From positions 1-64,000 of the forward strand of contig MU616654.1 of NCBI GenBank assembly GCA_025201705.1: a stretch of DNA of 64,000 nt. Reading direction: 5' to 3'. Positions within the stretch are counted from its first letter, which is position 1, and each line of letters opens with the position of its first letter. A model generated the notes under the pieces. It was not told the DNA's origin, searched no databases, and saw nothing but the letters and a program-made list of their open reading frames with translations. A program made the position numbers and the translations under genes. Positions 8,618-64,000 of the stretch are shown here, piece by piece. Source of the stretch: Dissophora ornata. Taxonomy: Eukaryota > Mortierellomycota > Mortierellomycetes > Mortierellales > Mortierellaceae.

Positions 8618-11600
8618 ATGGCTGAGAACTCCGAGGACAATGGGCTTCTCTCAGACAATAGCCATCCCGGGATGGCAATGGCTGCGCCTGATCCCCTCAG
8701 ATCACTCGAATCCAGCACAACACCCCCGCCGCCACCCCCGCCGCCACCACAGCCGATGCCACAATTGCAACCGCCGCCCCAGTCGGCGATGGCTCTTCCG
8801 AGTCCGTACAAGCCCTTTGAGCTCATGCAACCTTTTCCACAGCAACGTCGCTCAAAAATGGCACCAACAAATCCATACAGGCCATTAGAGCAGGTACAAC
8901 ATCCGCCAGCGCAGTGTTACGCAGCCAAGGCTCATCCGAGTCCGTACAGGCCTCTAGAGCCGGCGCAACATCTAGTCAATCCGCGTCCGTACAAACCTTT
9001 AGAGTCGGTGCAACCCCTACCAGAGCAGGAATACTCAAAGATGGCTCCTCCGAATCCGCACAGGCCTTTAGATTACAGTACGGGAATGAGCATTCCAAAT
9101 CCCGACCTTCATATGGAACCTATAGTACTGGAGCAACCTCAACCGTCCGAATTCGCCTTCACACCGTATCCTCAAATTTGTCAACCCGCCCCGGCAAGTC
9201 ACTTACGGCCATTAGATTCGACCTATCCGCCGCTAGAGTCAACTTATTCGCCTTTGGACTCGTATCCGAATGACACCGGATATAGATCAAATGACAAGGG
9301 CAATGTCAAGGATTGGAATAAGGATGCTGGTAGTGATGAGTACGGAGATGAGGATGTGGATGCCAGCAGGGGTAATATCGTAGATCGGTATACGGACAAA
9401 CTCTGCTCGGCGATGTCCGGATCCTCTCCAACCCCTGGAGTCAACATTCATTGTCATTGGGCCCAACATCAATGGCGAGGACATGGATGACAATGTCGAC
9501 AGCAGCAACACACTGGGAATGTTGCAGTCTCAAACGGATGAAGTGGAAAAGGCGGCTAGAATGAACTGGCTTCCACCGTACCAACAACCTCAGCATGCGT
9601 ACGCAAATTATGACCGACTCCTGGAGACAAGTGTACCTCCTTTTGAGCTAAATTACACCCGACCGTTCATTTCAAAGGTCAGTACGACAGGTGGTTCGGT
9701 TGATCTCCTCGATCTTATTAAGTGATGCGCAACCTCCACAACATCAAATACAAGGAGAAGGATCTACGGACCTTGCAAAGACTATTCAGAAAGGAGAGAG
9801 AGAGTCGAGAAATATGAGCGCTTCTAAATCGCTGGTAGAGAAGAAAGACGAGCAGCCTCCTAGACCTGCTCTTACTTCTACAACAAAGACCACAAATATG
9901 GACACGGTTGTGGTGAGAATGGCGGTTTGATTACTGGCCGATGAGACGTCATAGTCGTCAACGACAAGCGCTCAAGAGCAAGACAAGAGCAAGAGCTGAG
10001 ATAGATAACTACACACACCGATATCCAGCCTTACACAATATTATACTGAACGCTTGGCAAATTATTAATAGCCACTAGAGTATGAGAATCCCACTGGGGA
10101 CTCAAATGCGAACGCGAACACGGACTCGAGACCACCTAGTACAGTGAATAGTACCGGTGCCACTGATCCTTCGAAGCTGTTCCTTGCTAATTTTATCGCG
10201 ATGGATCATAGTCGAGAACCGGGTGTACGGGACGAGGAAGGTACAGACACACAGCTTGTGCGCACAAGAAGATAGTGCAGCATGAAATCTGGTGCTAATC
10301 GGTCATATCGTGTAAACCTGTAGATGATGACACCAAGCGCCTATGGTACCTGTGGGAGATAGGCGATAGCGTTATCGGTGAGCTCCAAAGTCAGAGTAAA
10401 CAACCCGTGGCCGTGCCACAAGATGAAGACTGGAAGGTATGTACCAGTATCCTTTTTCATGTTTTCTCTCCACCTTTTTTTAAACCCATTAGACGTGGAG
10501 AGCGACGAATGAAAAAATAAAAAAAAATAAAAAAAAATAAAAAAAATAAAAAATAAAGGCACCCGCTAACGCACAATCATCTCCACAAAACAGTGCCAGT
10601 TGAAGATTTCAAAATCCCTTCGAGGCTGGTACTCGATCATATTTTGCATATCGTACGAAAGCTGGGACGAAAGTGAAGTCTCCTTAAACTCCTTAACTGT
10701 CGACGCGAAGCCGTTCGACTCCTTTAAACATGCTGTCTACATGGTAACGTGTATATCTGTTCACACACACGTATAGACTGTGTGTAAAGCTATCTGTTAT
10801 CGTTGATTGCATGGGTCAAAATCGACAGTCGGGGCTAGATGAATTTTCATTGACGTCCGTGTCGGATTACTTGCTTTTTTTTCACGCGCGCGTCTTTTAT
10901 TTTAGGACAAGACTTGCGAAACCTTCGCCGAAAACAAGGAACTAAGTCAAATCAGTATGTTTCTCATTCTTGATGAAACTGTTAATCGATGGCGAATTGA
11001 TACTGATTTTTGTTATCATTTATTTTTCCCATCTAGAACCGGGAGTGCAGACTCGGGTCAGACTACATCGTCAGATTGAGCTATCCAAGGATGGCTACGT
11101 TGAATTCTCAATCAAGGCTGAGGCCACTGGTCCAATGAAACTCAAAATGCACTATATTGCGCTCGAGCGTTGCGATAGTAACGATCTAGAAGGTAACATG
11201 GATAGACCTGATGAACAAATTGACAGCGAGATACCGGATCATAAAAATACGACCGAGTCAATATTCATCTTGGCGACGGATTTTGACATTCAAGATTTCG
11301 TTTATTTTTTCATCTCATTTTAGACTTGGTGCTGTATGGAGAAGGGAAACCCCAAGAGTTCATAAACATCAGACATAATTATGGAAACGACGGTAGCAAT
11401 AATACCGAAGCCAACTACAGGGGCAAGGAGATCGAAAAGTCATCTCTTAAGAGACCAGTCCTCGGTGTCCACTCATATGACATCTCCTCCTCTGGCTCGC
11501 ATGCCACGACCCTATGCTTCCACGAAGATAACCACGCCATCATTGAAGTGTGGTCTCTTAGCGATCTCGATAACACTGACGATATCAAAAACGGCAGCGA

Positions 11601-14600
11601 GGAAACTCCCCGTCGCCACACCTTACCTTTAGCCCGAGGTCGCATCGAAGCTTCTGCTGCCAATCACCCAGATCTAATGGATATCTGTTTCAGTATCTCC
11701 GACGATGGCAACTACGTGGCTATCCATTCCAATGATTCTTCGATCAAAGGAATCCCTTGCCATATCTTCTCACATGGCCCCAAAGCCCCCGCATACGAGA
11801 ATATCTCTAGGCCGCGGCAATTGTCACAAATCACACTACCAACCGGTCTTGAAAATTACTATGGCCATGGCACGTTTCAATTCATTCCCGCGGATAACGC
11901 AAGTGATGGAACAAGTGACCTTGAGTACTACATCACTTGTGACGGGAAAGCGTTATCGATCTACAAGACGACTGGCAATTGGGAACGAATCCGAATGATC
12001 GTTCTTAGCTTTGAGCCAAGACTGGATGCGGCATTGGATGCGTTCCTTGGTATGCGTGGACGCTACTTCGCATGGACAGGAGACTTGGGCGTAGTGTCTA
12101 TCTGGGATCTGGAGACGTGTAAGCAAATCTCGCACTTCCAGGTCGAAGACGGCGATGCGGGCACACATGCATGTCTCTCAAGAGATGGAAGCCTGGTGGC
12201 GGTATCAGTCAAAGGCGCCATCACAATCCATGAGACGTTGTCAGGGATCAAAGTCGCCGAATATGGACATGGATTAGGTGATAATAATTACTTCGAGATC
12301 ATATTAGAGAATGAATTTGCAATTGTGCTGGATCAGCTGGAGGGGAAGGAGTCAGAGGTGAAGATGGTGAAGAGGAAAGTAGTACGGCTTGGGGACATGA
12401 GCGTCGTGAGGGAGCATAGTATTCACCGAGATTATGGTTTGCGGTATCCAGCACCGATGGATGGCCAGTTGCTCTCGTACTCTCAGGTGAGTTGCGAAAG
12501 CGAGTGTCGCTGTTACGCTTTTCGTCCATATTCATTGCTACATTGAATTACGCTCTCAAACAACGCCTCTCTCTTGTGCCTTTACTACACAACATAGGGG
12601 TCAGTGGTGAATATCATACGGATGGATAGCAAGATGATTGGCGCACCAGAGCCGCGGAGATTCAAAGACAGCCTTTTGACCCGTGCTTCAGTTGATCAGA
12701 TCGCTCAGTGGGCCAATCACACATACACATCCAGTTCAGGCGACACCTTCAACCTTTCCGCCACAACCTCAGTCATTCGAGGCAGATGGATGACTGTCTT
12801 GACAATGAAATTCACAAACCCCCAATATGACTCGGGCTCACTCAGTCGCTTGACTATACCTCTGGGTACCTCACACATAACCTACCCGACCCTGTTCCTC
12901 GGCGCTTCTTCACGGCTTGCTATCGTCACCGGCCGCTACCTTCAAGTTTGGAAGCTTTCAAGCGCAACGGCCTCCGACAATAACATCGCCGAGCTGGAAC
13001 TCGTGTGGGCTCTTCAAGAAGAGGACGAAAAAAAGCACAAACTGTCTGATATTTGCCAGCGTTTAGTACAGTGCGCTTATATGGATCATGAGAGCGGGGC
13101 CCAGTTTTTGATAGAACTTCAACCAGCAAGGTGGTGGCGACGACTCAAACAGATGCCTATTGAACCTGCGCGAGAGCATATCGAAGTCGTCACAGTTCCA
13201 TGCTCAGCGAATGATACGCTGTCAGTCTCACTCGAATACCGTGTACGGCAGGGGATCCGTGGTGCAGTCGATATGTATATCAGTGGGGCTCCAGCTTGTC
13301 AGAAAGCGGTAGCCCGATACTTGCGGTCACTGATCCGACCATCAGATGAGAACCCCGTTTCGAGCATTGTGACATTGTGCAAGTTTTGGAAGCACCAACA
13401 AAAGTCATATTTCGAAAAGATCATGGCGGACTTATTGCCAAAGACCGAGATTACATGGATACCCGAGACCAATGCAGGAAAGAGGGATAAGGAACAAGAT
13501 CCATTGGCAATACTCATGAAGATAGCGGAGACTCAACCGGCAGCGATTGGAGTCGCCAAGGTGATCATGCACTACTGTGTCAGCCATGCGAATAGCTCCA
13601 GGAACTTGTCATTCTTGGCCCCTATCTTTGGATCAATGCACGATGTGATGAACATGTTCCCAGAAGAAGCACTGGAATGTCTGAGCAGGATGGCGTTCAT
13701 TCCCGCGAAGGACCGGTCGTACATAATTGATAACCATGTCATTGTACCTCCACCGACGCTAAGGCTGCAGTTCTGGAGGCCCGCTCAGAAGTTGTCAGAG
13801 ACGCGAGAGCCGATCATGCAGCTGTGTGTAAGTCCGACAAGACCGGACCCGTCGAATGACAAGTTCACATTACCAGTGTTCATGGCGTCGTTCGATGCTA
13901 TTTGGTTCTATAATAACGATGGCGATTCCGACAGCGATGGTGATGGCGAAAGCGATGGCGAAAGCGATGGCGATGGGTATCGGGATGGTAGGACTCTGAG
14001 TAGAGCTCTTGCAACGACGACAAAGACGACTGACGGAGAGGCGATCGTCGGGAAGTCAGAGATGTCGCGGTGGAAGATTTTGTTTCATATGATCAGACTC
14101 AAATCAACATTGCAGAGCAAGATGTTTGTTGAGTGCTATGATTTCAATTTGGAATTCTTCGAAAACCCGGCCATCGCTGCTCTGGTCGCATACAAGTGGT
14201 GAGCAAAGAACTCTTGAATCTCACTTCGCGTGCGTGTAAATTAGTCTGTGCTGCAGCTCACTGGATTAATCTTTGTTTGATTTGTGCGACTACAGGAACA
14301 CGATCGGTTTCTCATACTGGCTGGCCCGGTTTACATTCCAATGCTGCTACTACCTCCTGGTCGTCATCGCTGCAAATCCTGCAAGTATATCTGGCAGATC
14401 GCACGGCCCTGTTCGGTGTCTTTATCGCCATCATTGCCATGGCTGCCGTCTTTGTATGGCTTGAGATCCTGCAGGCCGTTCAAGGATGGGCCAGATATAA
14501 AAAGTAATTAAGCGAAGAACAGGAAACTATCTATCTATGCAGTAGAGCAAGATCATGGTCCCGACAAATCATATTCACCTCCGAGATGCCTTCTTTTCTT

Positions 14601-16059
14601 TACAAAAAATTACTCTTTAGATCAACTTATAATTTTCTGGATTTACTGGCATTCTTGATTCCAATGGCGGCGAGTATCGACCAGTTGATAGTATTGGTGA
14701 ATAATAACTCTCAAGGGAACACGCGAATCCTTAGCTTCTCGGTTCTCATTATATTCCTACACATGGTAAGTATCGCGTTCCTCGCACTTGTGCGAGCTGA
14801 TAACGCCCCGGTAAAATATGCAGAAGACAACATTAGTCCAAGTCTCACATCTTCTATCACGTTCTGGAATAGCTCTTCGAGTTGCGGATCAATAAGAGTG
14901 TGTGCAAGTATGTGTCGATTATCCAGCAGGCCGTCGTCGAGATCCGGGTATTCTTCGTGATCTTTGCAGCTGGGATCTTAGCCTTCACGATCGGGATGCT
15001 TCATTTGCTACATGCGTGTCCTCTTGGAGGGTGCGATGACACGGGAGATAGTACGACAGGATCTGCATTCCCAATGCACTTCTTCGGCGCACTTTCGGCT
15101 ACATATTTCTTCATGGTAAGGATCGGCGATTATTGTTACTAAAGGGAACCTTCATTACACAAGAAAGGACTAAACGCGTGGCATTTCTTCGTGGTCTGTA
15201 CTTAGGGTGGTATATATGACCCCGTCAGCGACAAATTTGACGGCGATGACTGGGCCTTCCATATCATGATGGCTGTCTTTTTCTTCTTCACAGTCATCCT
15301 CATGCTCAATGTGCTGATCGGTAAGACAAATCATACGTTCATTATTGAACTGTGCCAATGCGTTGCATAATGCTACCCATAATGGCTAATCATGCCTCCC
15401 CTCCCATTTTTTGTACAACCGCTATTGCTGAAATGCTTCCTGCACATGTAGCTCTGATCAACGTGGCATTCAGCAAGGGTGATGACGGCTGGCGCCTTGC
15501 ATGGATTGAATCGCGACTGCGTTACATTGAATCCGCTGAGAATATGTCGTACCATATTCCAGGATACCGTGAGAGCCATTCCTTCTTCCCGAAGGAGATC
15601 TATTTCAGTGCAACGACACAACAAGTGAATGAATATCAGGAGAAATATGGAGGGAAGTATGGAATAAGGGCAGAGGAAGTAAAGGCAGCAGCCGCGGAGG
15701 TGAGAGATGGAGCCGATAGATCGGTTTATGAGAAGGAGTATGGTGTCGCAGGACGAGGACAGGAGAGCATTGATAAGAATGACAACCGCAGCATCAGTAG
15801 CGATCACATCGGCAACAACAGCAAGAATAACAACAATGACAGCAATGACAGTGATGATGTGCTTAAAGAGCTGATGGAGGAAATGAGACTGATGAAGAAA
15901 CACGGCGATATTCAATTGAAGGAGATGAGTGAGAATACAAGGCTTATGAAGAAGCAGAGTGATGCTCAGTCCAAGGAAATGAAGGAGATGAGATTGATGA
16001 AAGAGCAATTCCAGGAACTTATCAGCCACTTATCTCTTTCAAAAGGTGGGAGCCAGTAA
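8618..16059 (+). CDS. WD40 + TRP-like ion channel, copy A (diverged, probably frameshifted)
   Basis: The first and most diverged + strand copy. Well-supported exons are 10072-10240, 10324-10436, 10594-10743, 10906-10954, 11037-11192, 11324-12486 (WD40-like, with VVSIWDLETCKQISHF), 12598-14198 (helical linker), 14296-14503 (S1-S2), 14621-14765 (S3-S4), 14873-15115 (S4-S5, S5, pore helix), 15206-15320 (pore and S6) and 15452-16059 (post-S6 and coiled coil). The 5' part, 8618-9912, is proline-rich with recurring P(Y/H)(K/R)PLE units and runs in three successive frames; the last piece joins 10072 across a consensus intron (9913-10071). The S1-S2 exon is 208 bases where all paralogues have 207: an extra A at about 14372-14375 shifts the frame before S2. 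The gene is therefore probably a recent pseudogene, or carries an assembly error. Predicted role: non-selective or calcium-permeable cation channel. Confidence 0.7.
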
Positions 16060-16093
16060 TGATATCTCTGAGGTGGAGGTCACTCCGTTCATT

Positions 16094-16099: not shown

Positions 16100-16194
16100 G
16101 TTTCTTAAGATATTCTGAGGTCCTTCATCAACAAGCCTAAGACATTTAGCCACTGTACTGAGGGAAGGTCTGACAATACTCTACATCTGCCTCC

Positions 16195-17300: not shown

Positions 17301-18114
17301 CGGGGGACTTGACAGCCTTGAAACTCAGAGCAGTTTTTTTTTTTTTTTTTTGGTGTTGGGTATATCGCCAAGATCTCTCCCCTGTTACCAAGTTCGCTGC
17401 CTAGAATTTGATTTAAATCCTCCTGTAAAATAATATAAGTGGCCTCTCAGTAATCTGAGAATAAAATAATGCAAGTAACCAGTGAACAGATATGAATGTT
17501 ACCTTGGCGACGAGAAGAGTGGGGAGTGTTGCGAGGCGTGAGTGGAGCAACGGTGTTGCCGTTTTCCAAGAACGTCTTCCCAAACACAGATGGAAGAGAT
17601 CCCATTTGTTTTCGAATCGCCGGTCTCTTGTGAAAGGCCGGTTACTTCTCCAAACCGAATTTCTTGATTTTGTATTTTTACGGTTATATCTGGCCGGTCT
17701 AGTTTCAGGCCTTGTTTCTTTTGCAGTTCAGAGGACGTGCTTGGACCATGTATTCAAATGAATTACCAACAAGTGAAGAACCGTTCGATTGTTGATTTTG
17801 AGGGTTCCTTGCAAAGTAGGAGCAACATGGTTAACAACCAAGGTCTCTTCCGAAATCGTCCAATAGGCTACTGCTCTGCAGCAGGATAAGCCGCATGATA
17901 ATACTATAAGAACCGATCTGGCAAGATCAGCTTCTCCACCCGCTCCACTCCGACCCCTGGACCCCTGGACCCCTGAACCCCGATCCTAGAAACTACTCAT
18001 GACTTCTACATGCTTCAAGCTGTGTGAAGAACAATGTTAAAAAAAGAGGACCATCTCTGTAACAAATGTAAAGTGAGTGAATATTCCAGTAGTGATACAA
18101 GACTTACAGATAGT
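17301..18114. other. Intergenic, degraded DNA
   Basis: Starts with a T run (17336-17351). It contains three near-perfect GGACCCCT-type units around 17952-17978. No convincing gene or RNA is seen. Confidence 0.35.
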
Positions 18115-18850
18115 CGAACATGATCCGAGTTTTTCTGTCCAGCGTTTGAAGGGCCTCACATGCTCCATCATGATCGTTATTGATCCGAAGCTAAAGGAAT
18201 GTGAGAAAGGTTAGACCTGGTTCGGTAAATCAGCCTCATTCTATGGCTGTAGAGCAATTCACGTACCCTCACTGCTTTTAACACTGCTGCATCATCAACA
18301 GTCGGCTCGGGGAAGGTCTCTTGCGTGTTCAGTTATCCCAAGGCATGTCCAAAAAACTCGGCCATCCGTGGCGTTGGAACAAATGGAGCAAATACGCTCA
18401 TGATTGCCCTATGTTGGTAGAAGTAAGAAATGTGATGAGCACTAAGGAAGTCAAAAGATCGACAGCAGAGAGCATTGTACCGGAACCTACATCGCGTCTG
18501 CAATATCAGACATAGCGATTTGCTTGTTAATCAGTGCTTTCACGCAAACCCTCTGATATTCTTGAAATTTGCAGGCCACGCAGAGGTCTTCGACCTTTCA
18601 CTATGAACCAATGAATCAAGGCGTTAGGCACCACACGCATCTTCGAGATAGTATTTGTGTAGGGAGATGTATGTACCATGCACACGTCGTGGTGTGAATC
18701 TTCTATAACAGCCAGAAGCTCTGCTTGCTCATCGTCCTTAATGACAATCGAATTGCTCGTTGCTGGTGCCGTTGTTGCTGGACATGTCGCAGACAAGGAC
18801 GACTCCAGTGACGACTCATTTGAAGCCGATGAAGATGCTGGCTACGCTTG
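18115..18850 (-). pseudogene. Possible degenerate multi-exon gene
   Basis: Short coding-like blocks lie in order on the minus strand: an acidic, Ser-rich block ending QAELLAVIEDSHHDVCM with a GTACAT donor (18850-18680), then MRVVPNALIHWFIVK, then MSVFAPFVPTPRMAEFFGHA, QETFPEPTVDDAAVLKAV with a GTACGT donor near 18267, and LRINNDHDGACEALQTLDR to about 18115 with a GTAAGT donor. A TAA stop interrupts the frame between FFGHALG and LNTQETF near 18332. The splice-like borders suggest a real former gene. I recognise no family. Confidence 0.3.
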
Positions 18851-18900
18851 AGGACTTGGGTGTGACAACACTACTGATGACGACGCTGATAAACCCTTGT

Positions 18901-18979
18901 GCTTGAAAGCGCAATTTTTCTTTTTTTTTTGACTAACAAGGACCCCCAGGGTCATGGGAGCTTGAAAGCGCAATTTTTC
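18901..18979 (-). mobile_element. Micro-retroposon with 20-bp target duplication, copy 1
   Basis: A perfect 20-base direct repeat (18901-18920 and 18960-18979) flanks a 39-base insert. On the minus strand the insert reads CATGACCCTGGGGGTCC, then TTGTTAGTC, then a run of ten A. The same body, again followed by poly(A) and again flanked by a direct repeat, occurs at 29296-29350. Target duplication plus poly(A) is the signature of LINE-type reverse transcription. The body is probably the extreme 3' end of a LINE or SINE. Confidence 0.7.
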
Positions 18980-19145
18980 CTCGAGGATGATGAAGATCCC
19001 CCCCCCTGCCAGCAGTATCATGGTGTGAGCAAACAAACAATAAAATGATATCAAAAAGGGTTATTACTCCTTCGATACCAAAGAGACACGCTTTCATGAG
19101 GGCAAGTGCACCGGCTTACATGTGCTCGAAGCGGCAAATGTTGTA

Positions 19146-19336
19146 TACAGTCAACCCCCCCGATATAATGCCACTCGCTGTACTGACATTTTTCATGTAG
19201 TGACATCACTTGAATTTTCATTATATTTTTTTACTATGCATTTCTTCTCGTTGTAACGACATTCCCATACAATCGCCTATAATGACACCTCCAAATCTCT
19301 GTACCAAACATGTCATTATAACGGGGGTTGACTGTA
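19146..19336. mobile_element. TA-flanked inverted-repeat element (pogo/Tc1-type MITE)
   Basis: The 187-base element at 19148-19334 begins CAGTCAACCCCC and ends with the inverted GGGGGTTGACTG. The terminal inverted repeat extends about 24 bases with small gaps (TATAATG on both sides). It is flanked by TA on each side, the target duplication of Tc1/mariner/pogo elements, and CAGT ends are typical of pogo/Tigger-like families. There is no coding capacity, so it is non-autonomous. Confidence 0.75.
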
Positions 19337-20035
19337 TTGTTCTGTGTGCGCGTCGGAGGCGGCTCTCGCTTGTTTTGACACGTCGGGCAATGGCGCTTCT
19401 GTATGTTTATGCTGAGAGGATGGAAATGGTAGAAACGAGTGTGAGGCGTAAGATGGACCAAAAAGGGGCGCAGCAACGAGAAAAGCGTCAGGTGCGAGAC
19501 CTACCAACATGATCACTCTCTCAAATTCTTTCAGCCGCCTCTTCTGAGCAGCTTTCGGAGACGGTTTGCACTGCTGACTTTGTGTGCTTTGAAGGTAGGG
19601 GATCACTATCGATCGCCAAAGCTTGTCAAATTATGATGCCTCAAGGACGACTTCGCTATTCCTCACCAAGCCTGTGATGCTGACGTCCCTTCCTGCGGTC
19701 TGTTCAGGGTGTGCCTGTTGGTCATTGTCGATGTTGTCGGTGGTAGAGGTTGAAGTGATGGAGGGGGGTTTTTTTACGCGTTCTCGTAAAAAATAGAAAA
19801 CAGCTCGAAAGCAGTCACTGAACGTCGCGAGTTCTCGAACGTCGCGTTTTGGCCAGGTGTTTATTCAGGCCGAGGCGTTGAGGTCACGAAATTGATTCCA
19901 TTGCAGTAGCACTCATCTTTGTTCCTCCCCAAGGTAAGATCTGCATTGTTTGTGTAAAATCCCGTGGCGATAGCAGTGAATAAATGAGCCTTGAACGCTT
20001 CTGGTCAATTCGTTGAGGGCTCTGAGAAAGATTAG

Positions 20036-21480: not shown

Positions 21481-24400
21481 ATGTATGGGAACTCACCGAG
21501 CAGCGGGCACCCCAATGATCGCCTCTCATATGATGATCATCCTGAGATTGTTGTGGTTGGACCTAACACCCCTGAGTCCGAGGAAACCGCGATTCCGCTG
21601 AGTACGCTCACTCCAGTACCAAGCGTTAGCATCGACATACCATCGGATGATGGCCGCGAACAACAAGGAGATGAGACCAAGATCAACGAGCCTCCGGTTT
21701 CACCATCGCAGGACGAAATTTTGGAAGACGGCAAAGGCGTTTACCATAAAAACAATCGTATAGAGAATCCTGCACCAGCACAAGAATCGGTATGTGAGAC
21801 TACGGCAAAGACTGCAGTTGAGATGAGCACCCAGCGGGCGCCACCGGGCGCTAAGGTTCCGGGTGTCGGGGAGGAAAGGGTCGGATTTCGGGGACGCTTG
21901 AAGAACAAGTTGATGTCTAAGATCGCTAAGCCCCCTGTTGATGACGGAAATGGCGGTGATAACAATACTCGGGGCGAAGAGAATAGGGTTGACGGTGATG
22001 ATGAATATGGCAGCGGGGATGATAGCGAGAGTGAATATGACGATGAAAGCGAAGGCGAGAGTGGTGACTCAAACAGACCAGTCGTAGAGAACAATCCTTC
22101 CTGTGCACCGCACCAGCCTGGCATGGCGCCTAATATTGGCACTGATGAACAGGACAAGGACTTCAGTCAGAAAAACAAACATGACAAGGGCAAGGTCAAA
22201 GGGAAAGGCGAGGACCTGGATCCAGCCCCGGTTGATAAATTTAAGAACGATGTAAAGGCCTCCCCGAAAAGAATAGCAGCTCTGAAAGCAAAGATCAAAT
22301 CTCGATTTCGGCATCGTTCGAATGGTTCAGTAGCAAAGCCCGAGGCAAATCTAGGTACGATTCTGGTGGGAGTGTTACTGTCGCTTCTGCGTTATGAGTC
22401 GTTGCCATTGATTGCTATACTAATCGGTTGTAATATGTAAACGTGTGTGGGTATGTATGAAGTAGGTGACGACACCAAGTGGCTGTGGGACTTGCGGGAG
22501 ACAGTAGGTGGGGATGTACAAAGCGAGCGCAAACTCCCCGTGGTCGTACCTCAAGACAAAGACTGGAAGGTAGACAGCACTATGTTTCCTTTTTTAAAGA
22601 TTGGTGTGCAGTGGCAATGAATGCAGTAACACTTATTATTATTCTCCCCGAAAACAGTGCTCGCTACCGACAGGAGACATCCCAAGTGGATTCTACTCCA
22701 TCGTATTTTGCATGACATTTTCATGCATCGGCGGTGTTAAAGAGCCGTTGGACTCCTTAACTGTTGACGCGAACCAGTTCGGTTCCTCTGAAAATCCCGT
22801 ATACATGGTAAAATTCATGTTTCCATACATGTTCATGTATCTCTTGCGTGTATATTTGTGAATGTGTGCTATCGAATGAAGGTATTCTTCAAAAATGAGT
22901 TTAACGCGCGCCTTTTCGTTAGAATAAGACTTGCAAGACAACTGCCGAGAAAGAGGAACTAAGTCAGATTAGTACGACTATTTGTCCCTGCTGCTATTGC
23001 AAATATGTTGCACAATAGCCCTTGAAATTGACAAACTATGGCGAACTGATGATTTCGCCTCCGATCTGTTTATTTGTTCGTCTGCTGTCTTTATTATAGA
23101 GCTGAGAAAGAAAACTCGGGTCAGATTGCATCGTCAAATTGAGCTGGCCAAGGATGGCCAGTGCCATTATATCGAGTTCTCGATCAATGTTAAGGCTTGT
23201 AATTTATGGAAATTCAAGCTACATTATGTTGAACTCCAAAGTTGCAATATCACAAATTCCAAAGGTAAAGATCAGAGGAATAAGGACGAAGGTGAAGATG
23301 AAAGAAATGGATTTTTAAATACATCTCACTCCATTTAGATATCGTTCTTTTTGGACAAGGAAAGCCCCAGGAGTACATCAACGTGGGGCGTCATCACGTA
23401 AATGGCGACGGCGATGAGAATTACGCTAGGGGACCAGTCGTCGACGTTCACTCCTACAATATCTCCTCTTCTGGCACATACGCCACCACCCTGTGCTTTC
23501 ACAAAGATAACAGTGCCGTCATCGAGATCTGGTCTCTCAAGAACGACAACAATGTCCACCATCACACCACACCCGAAGCTCGAGGATACATCAAAACTGC
23601 TGGGAATCGCCCAGATCGAGCGGATATCTGTCTGAATGTCTCTAGCCATGGAGATTACGTGGCTCTACATTCTAACAAACTATTGGAAGAAGGAATCGAC
23701 TGCCTAGTCTTGCGTAGCACCAAAGGTGCCGCAGATGGTAGCGACTCTGAACTGAGGAGCTTGTCTGAGATCTCGCTACCGCTGGGTCTTCAGGAATTCT
23801 ATGGATATGGCACATTTCATTTCCTTTCCACAGATAACGAAAATGAGAAAGAGAGAGAGTCGGAGCGCTACATCACTTGCGATGGGAAATCGCTATCGAT
23901 TTACGAAACGATTGAAGATTGGGTGAGAATCCAGACGATCAAGCTTAGCAATGAGCAAAGACTTGATTCCGCGCTGAATGCGATCCTCAGTATGCGTGGA
24001 CGGTGTTTTGCATGGACAGGAAACAAGAACAATGTTTTAATCATGCATGTGGACAAGGAAAAGAAAATCAACTTGGCAATAGATGGCGTAAATGCAGAAA
24101 CACGTACATGCCTGTCGAGAGATGGAAGTCAAGTGGCGGTGTTGGTGAGAGGAACGATCTCAATCTATGAAACGTCATCAGGAAAGCGCGTCGCGGAGTT
24201 TGGAGATGGAAAGTACAACGATAGTCACTTTGAGGTGGTGTTGAAGAACGGATTGGTGATGATACCAGAAATGGGAGAAATGAAGGGGAAGAGGAAAGTC
24301 ATGCGGATTGAGAATAAGGTTTCCGACAGTGAGGTTTGCAACGACATTCATCCAGACTACGAGTTGAGGTATCCTGCACCGCTGGGTCAACAGTTGTTCA

Positions 24401-27400: not shown

Positions 27401-27824
27401 CATCGAAGCGGCCGAGAATATGTCGTACCGTATCCCTAGATATCGCGAGAGTCATTCCTACTTCCCGAATGAGATTTATTTCACCGCGACGGAGAAAGAG
27501 GTGAAAGAGTTCAAAGAGAAGCATGAGGTTTGTGAACGGGAGCCAAAGGCGGTGGCGACTAAGTGCAATGGCAACGGTAGCGACCAGAATGCAAACAATG
27601 GCAATATTAATAGCGACAAGAATGCGAGCAATGGTAATGGTAGTAGCGATAAGAATGCGAGCGATGGCAATATCAGCAGCGACAAGATTGCGAGCAATGG
27701 CAATGGTAGCAGCGACAAGGATAGTATTATAAATGGACTGAGGGCCATGAAGGAACAGAGTGATGCACAGTCCAAACAGTTCCAAGAACTTATCGACCGC
27801 TTATCAAAAGGCGGGAGCCAGTAG
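21481..27824 (+). CDS. WD40 + TRP-like ion channel, copy B (last splice acceptor lost)
   Basis: Exons 21481-22354, 22466-22569, 22658-22807, 22923-22971, 23100-23264, 23339-24411, 24512-26091, 26181-26387, 26506-26650, 26743-26985 and 27086-27200 are open, with GT-AG borders and intron phases 1,0,0,1,1,0,2,2,0,0,1. The last exon is open from about 27336 to the TAG at 27822-27824. Its acceptor and first eight bases, present in A, C and E as CTAG then CTCTGATT, are replaced by a 20-base T run, so it has no visible splice site. If complete it would have about 1,733 residues. Exon 1 encodes an acidic, disordered N-terminus ending in a Lys-rich patch; exon 6 the WD40-like propeller; exons 8-11 S1 to S6 with pore GGRYDPVSD. 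The tail carries a minisatellite of Asn/Gly/Ser/Asp/Lys units. Either a pseudogene or a mis-assembled homopolymer. Confidence 0.78.
27316..27335. repeat. T20 tract replacing the last acceptor of copy B
   Basis: The T run abuts coding sequence (AACGTGGCGTTTGGC). In copies C and E a shorter T run is followed by about 27 bases containing the acceptor, which are absent here. Confidence 0.75.
27580..27730 (+). repeat. Coding minisatellite in the copy B tail
   Basis: About five imperfect 30-33 base units encode (S)SDK(N/I)AS(N/D)GN(G/I). Copy E has one or two related units (KNASNSDDSSDK), and C and D essentially one (DKD). Unit number varies without breaking the frame, so this cytoplasmic linker tolerates length change. 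Confidence 0.75.
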
Positions 27825-36530: not shown

Positions 36531-36654
36531 GTTTCGCAACATATTCTGAGGTCCTTCATTCAACAAGCCGTAGACATTTAGTATGGCAGGCCCGCCAGAA
36601 CTATTGTTCTGAGGGAGGTCTGACATTTCTACATTTGGCTCGGCGCAAATGAAC

Positions 36655-37520: not shown

Positions 37521-37524
37521 CAAA

Positions 37525-44639: not shown

Positions 44640-44670
<31 letters not shown>

Positions 44671-49800: not shown

Positions 49801-52800
49801 GAGGTATCCTGCGCTGATGGGCGAACAATTGTTCGCGTATTCTCAAGTGAGTAGCTGAAGTCGTTTCCTTGATTCACCAACGCGTTGAAGTGCATGTCTT
49901 AACAGCGCAATTCACCCTGTGGTTTCCTCTTTTAGGGCACTGTTGTGAATATCACAAGGATGGACAGCAAGATGATAGGTGCACCAGAGCCAAGGATATT
50001 CAAAGAAGATATCAAAATGGATAAAGTCTCCATGTTGAAAATCGCTCAGTCACCCAAACATACCAGCCTATCCAATTCAGGCAACACCTTCAACCTTTTC
50101 ACAAAGAAGTCAGTCATCCACGGCAAATCCACTACTATTTTGACAATTGAATTTTGCCATTCAGATCCACACACATCGGCCACACCCGCAAACGCCGCGT
50201 CTGCAACATCAGAATCACCCATCGGTTTAACTATGCCTCTGGGTACCTCCCACACGGCCTATCCGGCCCTCTTCCTCGAAGGTTCTTCGCGGCTCGTTAT
50301 CATCACTGGTCGCTACCTTCAAGTTTGGAAGCTCTCAAGCCCAACGTCTTCCGACGACAGCATCGCCGAACTAGAGCTCGTATGGGCTCTTCAACAGGAA
50401 GACAAAAAGGCGTACAAATTGTCCGACATCTGCTATAGGCAGGTCAAAGATGCCCATGCGGATCTCGCGAATGGGGCCCAGTTCATGATGACACTCAAAC
50501 CAGCCAAGTGGCGGGAGGGGTCCGATGGACTGCTGAGTTACACGGAGCCGGGAAACGACAAGGTTGTGACTGTCCCATTCTCAAACAAGGACAATATGTT
50601 AGTCTCGCTCGAGGGCCGCGTGCAACAGGGGATCCGTGGTGTGGTTGATATGTACATCAATGGAGATCCGGAATGTCAGAAAGCAGTGATTCGGTACTTG
50701 GAGTCACTAGTCCTACCATCGAAGGAGAATCATGTTTCGTGTATCGCGGCACTCTGCAACCTTTGGAGATTCGACGAAAAGGAATTTTTCGAAAAGATAA
50801 TGGCGGAATTGTTGCCAAAGACTCGAACCACCTGGATCCCGGAGATTAATGCAAGAAATAAGAACGCAGGGCAGGACCCATTGGCTATTCTCTTGAAGAC
50901 CGCCAAGACTGAACCGTCAGCTATCGGCGTCGCCAAGGTGATCATGGACTACTGTGTCAGTCACGCCAATAGTACCAGGAACCTGAAGTTCTTAGCACCG
51001 GTCTTTATATCAATGCGCGAACTGAGAAAGATGTTTCCAGATGAAGCACAAGGATGCCTGAACAGGATGGCGTTCATCCACGCAGTATCAAGGCAGTACA
51101 TTATTCATAACCATATCGTTGTGCATTCACCGATTCAAAAACTTCAGTTTTGGAAGCCGGTTCGGAAGTTATGGGAAACGAAGAATCCTATCATGCAGCT
51201 GTGTGAAACCCGGTCTGACCCAAATCCGGAAAATGAATTGTTCACATTGCCAGTGTTCGTGGCGTCGTTTGACGCCCTTTGGTCCTACAACCTCGATGAT
51301 GACCGCAGCGAGAATAGCGAGGCGTCGACCGAAGCCCGAGAAATGGAGAGAACGACTACTAAGGGAGAATCGATGTTGAACATGTCGCGATGGTGGGAGG
51401 TACTCTACAAGATCAAATTCAAATTGAGGCTGAAGGGCAAGATATACGTTGAGTGCTTTGACTACAACTTGGAGATTTTTGACAACCCGGCGATCGCTGC
51501 CTTGGTCACGTACAAGTGGTAAAGTCATTAGTGCACGAGTTGAACGTTTTGCTAAAACATGGTAGACTTGACAAATAGCTCACCGAACTGATCTTTATTT
51601 GCTTTGTATGCTTTCAGGGACACGATTGGATTCCGGTACTGGTTGTTCCGATTCATATTTCAATGTTGCTACTATGCCATGATCGTTTTCGCTGCTATCT
51701 TGCAAGTGTATTTCCCATATCGCCCAGTCCTGGTCGGTGTCTTTATCGCCATCATTGTCATGGCTGTCGCCTATTTGTGGCTCGAACTCCTGGAGGCCGC
51801 TCAGTCACCGAGCAAATACGTGAAGTAAGAAAGCATAGAATATGATATCGAGTATAGATGTGAGCAAACGCGGAGAATGGCAGTGTGCCGTATTCATCTT
51901 CCATATGCATTTGCCATACACTTTTGATGTTTAGATCGGCTTATAATTTTATGGACTTGATGGCGTTCTTCACTCCGATGGCGGCAGCTGTCGATCAATT
52001 GATGATTATAATGAACAATGATCCTCAAGGGAATACACGCCTTCTCAGTTTCTCTATCCTCATTGTCTTCCTTCACGGAGTAGGTGTCATGGCCAGCATG
52101 ATAATATCACGATGTGATATGTGCTCAAGATCACTAATCAATGATCTAATCATTCATTATACATTTCATTTGCGATAGCTCTTCGAGTTGCGGATCAATG
52201 GGAGTGTATGCAAGTTTGTGACGATCATCCAGCAGGCTATCTTTGAAATCGAAGTGTTCTTCTTGATCTTTGGAGTCGGAATCGTAGCCTTCACGATCGC
52301 GATGCTCCATCTGCTGCATGCTTGTCCTCTCGGAGGATGCGATAGCACGAACAGTGATGCGTCAGGATCTACTTTCCCAACGAATATCTTTGGTGCACTT
52401 TCGGCAACTTATTTCTTCATGGTAAGGACTGTTGAATACAGCCATAGCATAGAAATTCATATGCGCAAGAAACTAAAGGGACGCTCTTTCTTTGGGATAT
52501 TTGCACAGGGGGGGCGATATGATCCGGTCAGCGACAACTTCGACAGCGAAGACTGGGCGTTCCACTTCATGATGGCCGTCTTTTTCTTCTTCACCGTCAT
52601 TCTCATGCTCAACGTGCTAATCGGTAAGATATGTGGTGTTAGGCATGCTCAATCTTAGTTCCGCTTTTGTACTACAGGAGAACTGACAACCCTCAATATC
52701 CTCATTCGCTGATCTCATCCTCCCTCTCCCCCTTTTTTTTGAACGTTGTATTACACCTAGCTCTGATTAACGTCGCATTTAACAAGGGTGGCGATGACTG

Positions 52801-53146
52801 GCGCCTCGCCTGGGTCGAATCGCGGCTTCGTTACATCGAAGCTGCCGAGAATATGTCGTACCATATCCCTAGATATCGCAATAGTCGTCCTTACTTCCCG
52901 GATGAGATTTATTTCACCGCGACGGAGAATGAGGTGAAAGAGTTCGATGAGAAGCATGAGCTTTGTGGTGGGGTGCCAAAGGCGGCGGCGACTAAGAGCA
53001 GTGGTAACGGTAGCGGCAAGAATGCGAGCAATAGCGATGACAGCAGCGACAAGGATTGTATTCTAAAAGAACTGAGGGAACAGTCCAAGGAGATGAAATT
53101 GATGCAACAGCAGCTCCAGGGATTTTTAAAAGGCGAGAGGCAGTAG
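46871..53146 (+). CDS. WD40 + TRP-like ion channel, copy E (intact)
   Basis: Twelve exons, 46871-47780, 47888-47991, 48098-48247, 48383-48431, 48530-48694, 48771-49846, 49936-51518, 51618-51824, 51935-52079, 52179-52421, 52509-52623 and 52761-53146, splice cleanly to 1,710 residues. The ATG used by B, C and D aligns here to TTG; in-frame ATGs at 46871 and 46883 can replace it, and I list the first. Exon 2 has lost the otherwise invariant Trp of its DWK end (RK instead). WD40-like exon 6 carries a small insert (DNKDNIKGAND). The pore is GGRYDPVSDNFDSEDW, the turret CPLGGC, and S6 FMMAVFFFFTVILMLNVLI. The tail has KNASNSDDSSDKD and a short coiled coil. With C it is one of two array copies with no visible defect. 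Confidence 0.88.
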
Positions 53147-54640: not shown

Positions 54641-54693
54641 CATCCTCCCCCCCTCTTTTTTTCTTTTTTTTTTGAACGTTGTATCACACCTAG

Positions 54694-55190
54694 CTTTGAT
54701 TAACGTAGCATTTAACAAGGGCGGTGATGACTGGCGCCTCGCCTGGGTCCAGTCGCGGCTTCGTTACATCGAAGCGGCCGAGAATATGTCGTACCATATC
54801 CCTGGATATCGCGAGAGTCGTTCTTACTTCCCGAATGAGATTTATTTCACCGCGACGGAGAAAGAGGTGAAAGAGTTCAAAGAGAAGCATGGGCTTTTGG
54901 GGGGGGAGTCAAAGGCGGCGGCGATTAGTATGGTAAAAGAACTGCGGGAGGAGATGAGGCAGCTTTCTGGGGAGTCAAATGCGGAGGCGACTAGTATGGT
55001 AAAAGAACTGCGGGAGGAGATGAGGCGGATGAAGGAACAGAGCGATAAACAGTTTATGGAACTCGTAAATCTACTCAATCGCTCGAAGGGCGAAAACAGT
55101 GGCAAGAACCCACAGAAGGAAAGTTTGTTTTTGCCGTTGATAAACCACATATTTTGGATCAGTCTATGGCCCGGGACTAGGCTGAAGTAG
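54694..55190 (+). pseudogene. Orphan last exon of a lost channel copy
   Basis: Preceded by the complete end of the last intron, with acceptor CACACCTAG at 54693, and then by spacer DNA. It encodes LINVAFNKGGDDWRLAWVQ, AAENMSYHIPGY and YFPNEIYFTATEKEV, i.e. the post-S6 domain. An internal duplication of about 63 bases repeats a (S)MVKELREEMR unit. Array similarity ends near 55090; the last 30 or so residues are read from the flank of gene F, and the stop (55188-55190) lies 27 bases inside F's coding sequence. No donor exon exists upstream, so it cannot make a channel. Confidence 0.8.
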
Positions 55191-58100
55191 TGTTTTGAGT
55201 TCCTCAAGCAGCCTCTTTGAGTGCTCCTGCTGCATCTCCAACTGCTGTTGCTGGGATTGCTTTTGCTGTGCTGCAAGTTGTTGCAGGAGCTTTTCCTCCA
55301 ATGTCTTCTGCTGTGTACTCAGCTGCTCAGCAAGAGTCTTTTCAAGCGCCTCAACTTGCGCTTTAAGATCTACAAGTTGTGTCTGCAACTGTACAACGGT
55401 CGACATATCCGTGTCCATTCGCGAAAACGAGTCTGACATCTCGATGTTCCTTTCCGGGTTTGTCGCTGTGACGTCCTTGTCAGCTATTTCCTGTCCGTTA
55501 GCATCTGTGCCCGCTGTTTCCTGCTCATTAACATATGTGTCGGCCGGGCCCAGTTCGGTAACCCGTCCGCCAGATGCCACAGGCTCTATATCATCGGCTT
55601 CAACCTCCTCCAATTCATTGGCCTCTTCGTTATTAAACCGCCATCTTTCAACCTCGTCATCAGAGTCGTCGCTGAACTTCGATTTTCCTTTATCCAGCGT
55701 CTCTCCATCTTCAACTTCATGACTTTCCTCGTGCCTGCTACTCTTTGCTGACTCCTCTATCTCTTCGTCATCATTGTCATCATCCTGCAGATAATCGTCG
55801 TCATTTCTGACTGCACGCATCCATTCCTCCAGAATCACGCTGTCCTGTGTACTCTTGCCATTAGCGGAATACTTTTCTCGGTACTCCCGCACTTGCTTGG
55901 GCGATGCTGCAAAATATATCTCCTTGGGGAACCAGTCGTACGTCTGACGAAATCCGGGGATATGGTAAGACAAATTCTCAGCAGATTCGATGCATCGAAG
56001 ACGGGAGTCAATCCACACGAGACGCCAACTATCATCGCCCTTGATGAAAGCGACGTTGATCAAAGCTATCCAATGCAAGAAGAGAGTGGTGTACCTCGGA
56101 AGGGGCTATTAGCCACTGAGAATAGAGCATACGAGTTGATTAGATATTGATTGATCAAGGGAAATGGACTCTTACCAATCAAGACGTTCAACATGAGGAT
56201 AACTGTGAAGAAAAAAAACATGACCATAGCCAAATGAAACGCCCAGTCGTGGCTATCGAATTCATCGCTCACAGGATCCCAGCGTCCTCCCTAAAGTACA
56301 TTGTTGAGTGTCAGTCAGTGCTGCAACGATGGTGAAAGAATGCATTGTACAATGAAGTCAGGATATCAGGTACCATGAAGAAGTATGTCGCTGACAATGC
56401 ACCAAGGAAGTGACCTGAATAGTTCGTTGTCGGGGCGTCACATCCTTCAAATGGACATGACCGGAGCAGATGCAGGATCGTGATTGTGAAAGCCAAGATC
56501 CCGCCAGCGAAAATGAAGAAGAATACGCGGATCTGAAAGACGGCCTCCTGAATTATGGTAACGTACTTGCATACAGTTTCATTGATGCGCAGCTCGATCA
56601 ACTGCCAGGAAAGAGTGGAAATGTTGCAATTCAGAAAAATTGATACAAAAACACTGCAAGATGAACGCATCTATTGATATTGACAGCATACCAGGTGCAA
56701 AAAGACTGCCAGAACTGAAAAGCTGAGGGCACGATTGTTCCCTTTGGAATCATTTTCAAATATGACAACCAACTGGTCGATACTTGCCGCCATAGGCAAG
56801 ACGAATGTAACTATATCCAAGGCGTTGTATTTCGACCTAACGCGTCAAAGAGAAGTATCGCGATGAGCAATTATATATGTGAGCGCTATTTTACTATTTC
56901 ATTTGTATTTTTTACCTCTCATCCTTACTTTTTGTACTGGATCCAACTGCGGGTGGCCTGCACCAGCTCAAACCAGAGAAAAATGGTCGACATGGCAATG
57001 ATCGCAACGAATACGCCTACCAACTTGCTGGGCTCGGGGTAGTAAACCTGCATGATCGAAGCAATGATCACCAAGGCGTAGAAGCAGCACTGGGAAAAGA
57101 ACCGGACAACCCAGTACCAGAATCCAATCGTGTTCCTTTCAAGTGTAGGTATTGTATATACGAAATATTCAACAACTTAATCCTTCAAGCTAAACCGACA
57201 GAATTCCCGGACAGTAGACGACTTACCATTTGTACGCTACTAGAGCCGCAATGGCGGGATTATCGTAAAACTCGAGGTTGAAGTCGTAACATTCTACGAA
57301 CAAATGCGATTTAGGGCTGGCCTTGAGACGCAGGATATGGTATAAAGTCTTCCACCAGGTGGTCGGTAGTGGCTCTGAAGCCCCAGCTGCTGAGTTGGAA
57401 TTCGTCCCAAGGTACACCTTCCCATCTTTGTAGTGCCACAGCGCGTCAAATGATGCCATGAAGAGAGGCAGTCGGAATCGTTCAATGTGCGGATTTGTTG
57501 TCTTCGAAGGAACTTGAAGCTGAAGGATAGGGTCTGGGAGCTTGTAGAGTGGCTGCGTACTTGGCTTCCAGAACCTTAGTCTGAAGCTCGGAGGATGGAT
57601 AACCCTATGGTTGTCAATGATGTACGAGCGACTCATGACAGGAATGAAGGCGATCTGGTTCAGACGCTCAAAAGCCTCATCAGGAAACAAGTCCATGACC
57701 TCACGCATGGACCTAAAGAATGGAGATAAGAATGACAGGTTGCGAGAGCGAATTGCATGGCTCACACAGTAGTCCATAATATGTTTGGCGGATCTCAATG
57801 CACTCGAATGAACCTTCGCCATCGCTAAAATGAGCGCCAAGGGTTCGGAATCCTTGTCGATATTGGCGTCGGGAATCCAGGTAACTTGATCAAGTGGCAA
57901 GAGCTCGGATATCATCGGGTCGAATATGTGTCTCTCATTGTGTTTCCAACCTCCAGCGAGAACGGCGAGTGATGAGTACGGACTGATGGAGCCGGGGCGG
58001 ACCCACGTCCTGAGGTACCGAATTACAGCCTGCTTACAGTCACCACTTCCATACCCATATATCGTTAGACACAAAGCCAGCCCGTAAGTCACTCGGCATT

Positions 58101-60837
58101 CTACTGTGGCTTTGAGCGTATCCTCCTCAGGGGAGTAGGGAAACGTCAGAGTGTCCTCGTGCTGCTCTCCAGCATGCTCCGTGAGTTCGATCCGGATGCG
58201 GTACCACTTCGCAGGCGACAGTCGGATCTTGATATTATTTCCATGTTGACAAGCCTCGGCAGACAATATCCTCCGTTCGCAGATCCCACCTTGCTGGCCT
58301 AGCTCCTTTGGTTCATTTTGAAACATCAAAACAGTGGAGATCTCACAAACCAGGGGACGCCGCGCAGAGAGTGTCCAGATTTGTAAGTAGATATGAAATC
58401 CTATTCCAAGCTGCGAGGTCGCTGGAATAAAAAACCCAAAGCTGCCGGTAATATTCGCGATTAATGGGATAGACATGCTCTTGACCGAGCTGTTGTCCTT
58501 GCCAACAACGACAACATCAAGAATTTTACAGGGTAATCCGAGATGTTCCACCAGGTTACATATGAGTTTGAATTTGGTTCCATCTTTGGATTGTACTTCC
58601 CGTTCTAGGCCAGCTGAAATGGAGAAGAATTCAACCGACTCCCTGGGGCATGCACCATTTGACCCACATCCAGCATTCGTCTTAGGAGACACGATGAGGC
58701 CTGGTCTTATAATGTTCAGATTCGCGCCCTTGAGAAAATGATATTGGAAGAATCTCAACGGTCATTAGCTAGATATCAACCAAGTACTCTGATCACCTCA
58801 AGAATATAACTCCTTACCCGATTGTGAGCAAATATAGGGTCGCGACGCGTTTGTGGATACTGGAAACTATAGTCCAGATGCATCGTCATGCTCTTGACAA
58901 TGGAAAAATCTTGTACTCGGATGACATTCATCCTCCTCTGCTTTGAGTCATGGAGTGCTTCGGCCGTGCTATTGTCATCCGCTATTAAATAGTCCTGTCC
59001 AAAAACGACTGTGCCAGCGTGTCTCTCAAGACATCTCCTGAAGACGGCCAATTTAATACCTGAAAAGGTGTCCCATATTTCGATTGCACCTTGGACAGGA
59101 AGCGCAAACTTTGAACCATCAGATGAAAGAGTACCCGCAGATGAAATTATACTATGTCCTGTAAAAATGTGCGAGACCACTTTCCCTGTCTCAAAATCCC
59201 AGATCGAAAAAGTTCCGTCGGCGCCAGACAAAGGAAAGTACCGTCGTTGTAAACCGCAGGAAATCCTGATAACATTAGACCAGGAGTATTGTGTTTGAAA
59301 CGAGATTGTATGTAGGCAAGTCCAGTTGCCTTCGGTGCTGTAGATGGTGAAGGAATATAGAGTAGCCGCCCAAAATCTCTCATCATTCCCGTCGTCATCG
59401 TTGAGGTCAATTCTATGATAGCACATTGTGCTGAATTGCTTGCCATCACAGATCGTTGTAGATTCTACAAGTGCCCACGGTTGAGAGGCAGCATTATCAA
59501 TGGGTGCTAAGGCAGCCCATTTGAAGGTGCGGAATGGGATTCCACCATCGGTATCCATGTAAGGAGTGCAGAGGGCGACCTGTGATCCGGCGCCAGAGAT
59601 GCTAATCTCCATGTTGGCAGTCCTCCAAAATGCGGAAGATGTAAGCGCTGTAGATACTTCAAAAACTGCCTGTGCGCTGGCGCGACTCAGGATCTGTGGC
59701 TCTGTCAAAGGTTCTTGTTTGCTCTCAAGCGTCCGTAGATCCCAGACACAGACATGGGCATGGCCGTCTGTGAAGGAAAGAGTGACAGCATGCTCCCCTG
59801 TGTCGGAAAAGTTGTATGCACGGATATCAACAGGGTTCTTCACGGGCTTATCGTCAGCCTGCAGTCTGATAACCAAGTCGGGCCGATATACGCCATAGAC
59901 GATGTGATCTAGAAAATATTGTAGAGGTGTTGGAATAAGCGGCGAATTAAATTCACCAATGATCGACTGGAAGTTGTACGAGCTTTCCTTACCCTTTGTT
60001 TCTGCAGATGACTGGAATCGGTTGGCCTGAATCTCGATGTAATGAACCTCGAACGAAAACGGATGGCATTTTTTTTCTAAATCAAACGATATTGCAAAGA
60101 ACTGGTCCTCTATTGCTGAGCCATGACAAATCGATCGGTGTAGTCTAAGCCGTGCAAAGTCGTCCTTTGCTGAGGGTAACGGGATGGACACATCAAAAGT
60201 GGATAAGTTACGAGACAACCGACCCATTCAAGGCTTTTCCTTCCTGTCGTTTGTCCTTCACTTACGTAACCTGCGGATCTCTTCTGGCTCCACAAATGTT
60301 GTCCCTGGTAAAGTCTACATTTATATGGTTGGATCGGCTGTAAGCGCAGAGTCGGTAATGTCAAGCATTATGCCGCTGAGGAAGCAAGGCAGCCATGCGT
60401 TGTTTTTAAGATTAAAACCGTTTTTCTGATAACTTGCCATTGAAATGGGTTCTTTTTCGTTCTTGTCTCCGGGACAGCCAACAAATATGATATTTTTTAT
60501 GGCCTCTACATTAGTGTCTTTGAGTGACACGCAGACCACAAGCTCGTAGAAACCAATCTCAATGCCATCCATTGGCAACCGGCATGTAAATTGCCTGGCA
60601 TGGTCGTACTCCTGAGGCTCGGATGGTGCTGTTGGTCTAGTACAGCAACGAAGAGTTCTCGTTAGAAAAACAGTGGTCTCTTTGAGCATGTGCGGCAGAT
60701 TGTCCAATATTGAAAGATTCGGCGTACTCCTTTGTACCGATGGGTCCCATTAACCATCTGTCCTTAATGTACCATCGTCGAATAGCTGCTGTAAAATCCA
60801 GAGGAAAGATGTGCTTAGGTACGTTGCAATGAATTGC

Positions 60838-60890
<53 letters not shown>

Positions 60891-61077
60891 CTTTGTCTTG
60901 CTTACTGCTCAGAGACTCTGTCTCTTTCATATTGGTTTTCCAACGTGAGGAGCCCTCTCGATTGCGCCCCATCCATGAGTAACTGAAAGGGTCAGAGGTG
61001 TCTGTATATTCACCCCATGATTCAACACGATTTGGTCTTGACTCTGTCGAGATGTTTGAGTCTTCGGAGTCAGACAT
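55164..61077 (-). CDS. WD40 + TRP-like ion channel, copy F (diverged, inverted)
   Basis: Minus-strand exons, 5' to 3': 61077-60906, 60679-60434, 60304-60266, 60169-59993, 59908-58818, 58728-57227, 57135-56929, 56836-56692, 56601-56374, 56290-56176 and 56065-55164, total 1,607 residues. The first three exons are tentative because borders are weak; from 60169 on, borders and phases equal those of the array copies. Conserved parts are LRLHRSI, a WD40-like propeller (FSIWDFETGKVVSHIF, then AIEIWDTFSGIKLAVF), the linker ending FYDNPAIAALVAYKW, turret CPFEGC, pore GGRWDPVSD, S6 FTVILMLNVLIALINVAF and SWRLVWIDSRLRC. The 301-codon last exon is much longer than in the array and ends in a Gln-rich coiled coil (about 70 residues), which could drive tetramer assembly. 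Head-to-head with G; its 3' end overlaps the orphan exon. Confidence 0.83.
60841..60888. repeat. T48 homopolymer in the first intron of copy F
   Basis: Forty-eight consecutive T on the + strand. If the GTAAGC donor at 60905 is right, the run is intronic (A-rich on the sense strand). Reading through it would give a Lys run, which I consider unlikely. Confidence 0.75.
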
Positions 61078-61262
61078 TGGTTCAGGAGCTGATATACCTG
61101 GGTTTTTATCAGAAGGGGCGGTGTTGTGAGGCGTAAAAAGGACAATTGGGCAGTATTCGGTAAAGAGGAACGAAGGCAGTGCCTCTCCTTTTTATAATGT
61201 CGATGGTCAATCCCGAGAGCCCGCCATATTAATATTGACCGCCCAAGTAGGCCATTCATCCA

Positions 61263-61667: not shown

Positions 61668-61786
61668 GGGTAGCAGGCAATTCCAGAGCAAGAATTCAGC
61701 GCTTCCCCATAAACAAGTGGCGAAACAGCTCTAAATCGCTCTATTTCGCTTTGGAACAAAAGGTAAATCGAGCTAGAAGGTGGTGT

Positions 61787-62047: not shown

Positions 62048-62059
62048 TGATCACCAAGG

Positions 62060-63062: not shown

Positions 63063-64000
63063 ATGCCAGGCACAAAGGAGATCGTTGATGGACAGGACAA
63101 TGGCAGCAACAGCGACAGCAATCCAGGAGGAATCTTTGATCTTACAGAGATAACACCACTCTCCCTTGCAATCGAAAGTTCTGGGGGCCAGAGGGATGCC
63201 GCCGCTGATTCTGAGAAAGTAAATTATGAAAGCGCCGATGGAAAACAGGAAGCGGCTGCGGAAAGCGACAACCATGGGAAAGTGGCGAGTGAAGGCGATA
63301 ACCAAGAGAAAACAGGCGATAGCCAAGAGAAAACAGGCGATAATGAAGAGGAAGAGGAAGAGGAAGGAGAACCAACGGAGGAGACCCTGGCATGGAGGGC
63401 CAAAGTACAAGAGATACAGTCTCCCAATGGTTAGTGTCGGTTTCACTGCACAATGCACACGTTTTGAAAATCAAGCAGCTGCTCACATCTTCAAATGCGC
63501 CACGTGACTTCTTGTTTAGCGATCCGCCGATGGTATCTCCAAAAAATGAAAGGGTGGATAGAAAACCAACGAAGAGGGACACAAAAGTACGTGTGGTTCT
63601 AACCATAGTATCCACTATCCGGTCAATGCGCACAACTGCCGCTTGCAATACCTCTTGCAAGTGTTGGAATGTTCACCGCCTTCTGACAGGATCTTTGCTC
63701 TTTTAATTTTTTTTCACTGTTTTTTCATAGGCTCACTGAACCATGTATACTCGACACCAGCGGGACGATAATCTATCAGCTTCCGATGGACGACATTGAG
63801 ATCGGATTCAACTACGAGCTTGTTATGTGTGCCTCTCTTAAAGGAACAGACATCAAAAACGTAAAAGAGATCAAATTTGACTTGAGGATGGCTGACAAGA
63901 ATTTATCACTAAATGGTGGAGTAAGTTGTTGTTGAAAGAAAATTGAATGCTGATTTTATTCTGAACCATTGCGACACTTCTTCCGCGAAACTAATCACGA
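63063..64000 (+). CDS. WD40 + TRP-like ion channel family, copy G, 5' end only
   Basis: The first open exon (ATG 63063, open to 63431) encodes an acidic, low-complexity N-terminus with Glu runs and a repeated (T)GDSQEK/GDNQEK unit. An exon at 63732-63921 with a TTTTTCATAG acceptor and GTAAGT donor encodes TEPCILDTSG and LPMDDIEIGFNYELVMCASL. This matches copy F's second exon (LPMDGIEIGFYELVVCVSL), which identifies the gene as the family's F-like branch. The two exons do not share phase through the obvious GTTAGT donor at 63430, so a small exon or another donor lies between. The WD40 and channel parts would be beyond the window. Confidence 0.6.

Follow-up and report, generated by a model that had tools for sequence, protein, structure and literature searches.

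An array of genes predicted to join a WD40 propeller to a TRP-type channel in the fungus Dissophora ornata

In this work we describe an array of genes in the fungus Dissophora ornata whose proteins are predicted to join a WD40 propeller to an ion channel of the transient receptor potential (TRP) type. The array lies in the first 64,000 nucleotides of contig MU616654.1 (this whole stretch is called the window below), where homologous multi-exon genes, named copies A to G, occupy about 8.6-64 kb. The original prediction of a WD40-propeller/channel fusion that has grown in tandem in a fungus was right. We consider it likely that these propeller-TRP genes form a subfamily of TRP-type cation channels that extends across the Mortierellaceae, and this estimate covers the whole explanation, including the mechanism and the history of copies A-E proposed below. 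Sequence and predicted structure together give the domain order: a disordered N-terminus, the WD40 propeller, a second beta region, a helical linker and the channel. The 3' part of the gene encodes the channel, with six helices and a pore helix, a TRP-like helix after S6 and a C-terminal helix that may form a coiled coil. The combination of propeller and channel is already visible in databases, where precomputed annotations sometimes give Ion_trans and a propeller family in one protein; the source names shown are nearly all hypothetical, unnamed or ion transport domain-containing.

The earlier reading had staked itself on an ion-transport fold, and in the predicted model the channel half is such a fold, of the TRP type, with six membrane helices and a re-entrant pore between S5 and S6. 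In copy C, Ion_trans scores over its cut-off (36.1 vs 25 bits, in a 1704-amino-acid model without one small exon). The predicted channel model matches TRP channels (Foldseek, VIA), and with family profiles TRPM2 and TRPV3 were the only channel rows among the best 60 of 152 and of 140 PDB rows; single-sequence matches were weak. The helix after S6, a TRP-like helix, is predicted at residues 743-768 of protein P0029, and its W747 is conserved in 97% of 133 relatives. Over the same relatives Gly697 (98%) and Asp700 (86%) of the pore and N730-L735 of S6 (81-99%) are conserved as well. By reading, S4 bears no row of gating charges, since the P0029 helix 605-624 has arginine only at its ends, 605 and 623. 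No ankyrin family was matched in copy C (E≤1), and none is among the 24 families to which 24 relatives gave matches (E≤0.1); the helical linker aligns in space with part of the ankyrin/linker region of TRPV channels. YVC1_C (PF23317) was found neither in copy C nor in 24 rescanned relatives, and precomputed annotation lists it for some of these relatives. Elsewhere in the D. ornata genome C80:2074-3193 and C123:932-1417 exceed the cut-off of YVC1_C, and D. ornata thus seems to retain a TRPY1-type channel in addition to the propeller-channel family; C123 also carries a locus of the latter.

A propeller had been expected at about residues 457-813 of copy C, and the predicted one covers about residues 460-830 (1704-residue numbering), folded on the copy D protein P0078. 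It has about seven blades and the WD40 fold. P0078 lacks some N-terminal exons of copy D, and the second beta region together with N-terminal strands might make a second propeller; the alignments folded comprised 51 and 56 rows picked from 99 and 100 relatives, about half. The profile search proposed for copy C gave the Ion_trans match but no WD40 sequence family. Among relatives, 11 of 24 match Beta-prop_THOC3 at E≤0.1 (best 1.2e-6), under the cut-off where bits are shown, and the family profiles match the WD40 proteins SMU1 and WDR5. The [FL]RRG motif, by which Atg18-type propellers bind lipid, occurs in 0 of 203 relatives, and a lipid motif of the Atg18 type was set aside.

Copies A-E all run in the same direction on the plus strand, and from the start of B to that of E the genes follow at intervals of 8767, 8612 and 8011 bases. 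Copy C (30248-36526) is the reference: spliced, it has 12 exons and 1721 amino acids with no stop. One of its exons, 32144-33213 (mapped from copy D), holds most of the WD40 propeller, the exon 33303-34933 holds the propeller end, the second beta region, the helical linker and the pre-S1 region, and those in 35033-36523 hold S1-S6, the pore, the TRP-like helix and the C-terminal tail. In exon 6, copies A, B, D and E have 52-73% identity to copy C in one comparison and 58-76% in another, which is more than chance would give. The spacer after C (36600-38480, plus strand) is part of the duplicated unit and is also present in pieces 3' of A, B, D and E; on other contigs three short stretches matched it, of which two lie on C5 and the third on C48. 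Past copy E (46871-53146) there follow in order a spacer, the orphan last exon of a further unit (54657-55070, plus strand; end of S6, TRP-like helix and tail), the inverted and divergent copy F (55167-61077, minus strand) and the start of copy G. The latter, from near 63063 to 64000 on the plus strand, extends to the contig end at 64615, and its spliced alignments to four references score 199, 206, 73 and 182, compared with 30-40 for eight shuffles with the first reference. Genes A-E with their shared spacer, the orphan exon, the inverted F and the start of G are the arrangement expected if a unit of about 8 kb had been duplicated in tandem. The spacer between A and B is interrupted at 17326-20033 by about 2.7 kb without a match to the C spacer, where open reading frames wholly inside reach at most about 104 amino acids.

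The seven members and the orphan exon that had been counted here are indeed homologous genes, but not all of them are intact. Only C, E and F are open over the aligned range: copy E has 1723 amino acids and then a stop, and the first exon of copy F (ATG 61077), placed by reading only, is uncertain. Copy A (8618-16056) has aligned exons at 10305-16056, whose frame is broken by a single base at two places, near 10620 and near 14372, and its proline-rich N-terminal exon, from ATG 8618, is joined to them by inference. The S6 motif NVLIALINVAF had been ascribed to each copy, which does not hold: its two halves, NVLI and LINVAF flanking the S6 intron, are both present in A, C, E and F only. Copy B (21481-27821) retains NVLI and NVAF and has lost ALI and the acceptor of the S6 exon, copy D (38860-44979) has NVLI and no LINVAF, the start of its last exon, and the orphan exon has LINVAF only. 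The same S6 intron in B (27188-27350) and D (44510-44680) ends in a long T-run, beside which the acceptor and exon start are missing by different lengths. P0001, P0078, P0013 and P0127 (D. ornata, BGZ58 tags) correspond piecewise to copies B, D, E and F (pieces of at least 40 amino acids at ≥93% identity). In P0001, which comes from another D. ornata record, the S6 part of copy B is intact, hence both a strain difference and an assembly error are possible. P0121 (EDD21DRAFT_367129), identical to copy E in its linker segment, is a truncated public model of this copy with 787 amino acids and no propeller; errors are therefore likely in the copy counts and domain lists published for the family. 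Upstream of the array the minus strand carries a 256-amino-acid open reading frame (2230-3000) without a Pfam match and one of 524 amino acids (5727-7301) that matches HAD hydrolases weakly, below the cut-off (PF12710, E 0.0032).

The expansion is not special to this locus but family-wide among Mortierellaceae relatives. Three protein searches gave 297, 58 and 317 relatives at E≤1e-3, of which the best 120, all 58 and the best 120 were listed; in the last search 7998 candidates were scored, and word-based searching misses remote kin. Every listed relative with a species name belongs to a Mortierellaceae genus. No relative from outside the family appears in the full list of 58 (52 with a species, all Mortierellaceae, and six without; none weaker than 1.3e-42), or among the named matches listed in the best 120 of 297 and best 120 of 317, and none of 64 pattern matches in a prokaryote scan is a relative. 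The annotated protein P0006 of Linnemannia exigua (2955 amino acids) has two Ion_trans stretches and is either the product of adjacent copies merged in one gene model or a genuine double channel. In the D. ornata genome the linker exon marks at least 24 loci and one fragment (26 rows, two on C713 merged), six of the loci being in this window. A search with P0029, in which 47 of 119 candidates were scored and which also gives a lower bound, showed other groups on C81 (two) and C491 (three). Of 209 sequences, 187 gave usable linker segments, and the tree was built from 85 of these, namely the closest 75 plus the Dissophora and window rows; P0152 raised a long-branch warning, and the order of B-E is not fixed by this tree. 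Copies A-E group with four further D. ornata rows in one clade (support 100/93). Next to it stands a group of five D. globulifera rows (100/100), of which three or more belong to a single record set with BGZ98 tags, and the two groups join at 99/92. The separate clades imply that this subfamily expanded separately in the two species. As a tandem array, then, A-E stand as one supported clade, but copy F is placed elsewhere and is no tandem sister of theirs.

How might such a protein work? In TRP channels the linker and the TRP helix couple N-terminal domains to S6. The propeller-TRP protein would form a tetramer that passes cations, probably Ca2+, with its cytosolic propeller sitting where TRPV-type channels have ankyrin repeats. 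The propeller may bind a cytosolic protein or lipid and, once bound, would act on S6 via the linker and the TRP-like helix. Copies A-E would have arisen when the unit of about 8 kb was duplicated in tandem, later than the divergence from D. globulifera; birth-and-death would then have followed, with the N-terminus under relaxed constraint. More speculatively, and rather improbably, the propeller-TRP channels might be a fungal repertoire of cytosolic sensor-channels, in which every propeller detects a cue, whether microbial, endobacterial or self/non-self, and the channel converts it directly into a Ca2+ signal, the set being renewed per species by tandem birth-and-death as in expanded receptor families elsewhere.

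The ratio of nonsynonymous to synonymous substitution rates (dN/dS; Nei-Gojobori) was computed for all six pairings of copies B to E. Copy A was left out, the reading of B includes a few codons of intron sequence at the damaged S6, and D was taken without its second and last exon. The ranges were 0.82-1.16 in the disordered N-terminus, 0.75-1.15 in the N-terminal beta exons, 0.54-0.79 in the propeller, 0.58-1.08 in the second beta region, 0.40-0.54 in the linker, 0.54-1.28 in pre-S1 (39 codons) and 0.35-0.92 in the channel. This pattern is explained by relaxed constraint; regional values neither show nor exclude selection at single sites. Selection on sensing specificity, as first proposed, is hence not supported, given 0.54-0.79 in the propeller and about 0.8-1.2 only in N-terminal parts. 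We regard it as unlikely that diversifying selection on the propeller has made the copies sense different ligands: the parallel tandem growth in two Dissophora species, the variable N-terminus and the greater variability of loops than strands (pooled propeller dN/dS 0.78 vs 0.58) would fit, but no region clearly exceeds 1, and faster loops are usual in any fold. It is also not probable that the array is mostly decaying, with duplicates that lack a function of their own and one or a few still making channel protein. The disrupted frame of A, the lost last-exon starts of B and D, the single orphan exon, and a dN/dS that is close to 1 in the N-terminus and reaches 0.92 in the channel speak for decay; yet C, E and F are open over 1400-1721 amino acids, all six pairs show constraint in the linker, and the intact S6 of B in the other record means that some losses may be assembly errors.

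Two further alternatives concern the protein itself. The channel fold might be non-conducting and the protein a membrane-anchored scaffold with a WD40 platform. Channel function is here a prediction from sequence and modelled structure, and we know of no TRP filter identical to its filter stretch FMGGRYD, but the conservation of Gly697, Asp700 and N730-L735 given above makes this reading quite unlikely. The gene models were joined from exons manually and with a script, without transcripts, and propeller and channel could in principle be separate adjacent genes joined in the models. This is most improbable and was set aside, because both modules occur in single public proteins such as P0001, because P0004 and P0030 have Ion_trans together with a propeller match, and because one exon, 33303-34933, runs from the propeller end to pre-S1. 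A propeller-TRP channel subfamily of the Mortierellaceae is the explanation that we prefer.

If this explanation is true, the TRP sensor module is swappable, a WD40 propeller replacing the ankyrin repeats that many TRP channels carry before the linker, and hundreds of variants offer a natural panel for how a propeller couples to the TRP gate. Mortierellaceae, which are common soil fungi, would also have a calcium-signalling repertoire of which we found no study. No description of a propeller-TRP channel family was found in the literature, judged mostly by titles and the starts of abstracts. Expansions of TRP-CC have been reported in early-diverging fungi, with Neocallimastigomycota and Glomeromycotina named in the part of the source consulted (PMC8778642). 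TRP-type growth in such fungi is common to both cases, whereas the lineages differ and 'wd40' does not occur in the main text of that paper. With the animal TRPV, TRPM and TRPC channels the family shares the six-helix channel, the pore helix, the helix after S6 and the helical linker before S1, but those channels have ankyrin repeats or the TRPM homology region where a WD40 propeller is found here. The fungal vacuolar channel TRPY1/YVC1 has no propeller, and the YVC1_C matches in the D. ornata genome are at other loci, on C80 and C123. In conclusion, a predicted seven-bladed propeller is common to this family and to the WD40 propellers of Atg18/Hsv2, Ski8, SCAP, G-beta and SMU1, but in the propeller-channel family it is fused to a channel.
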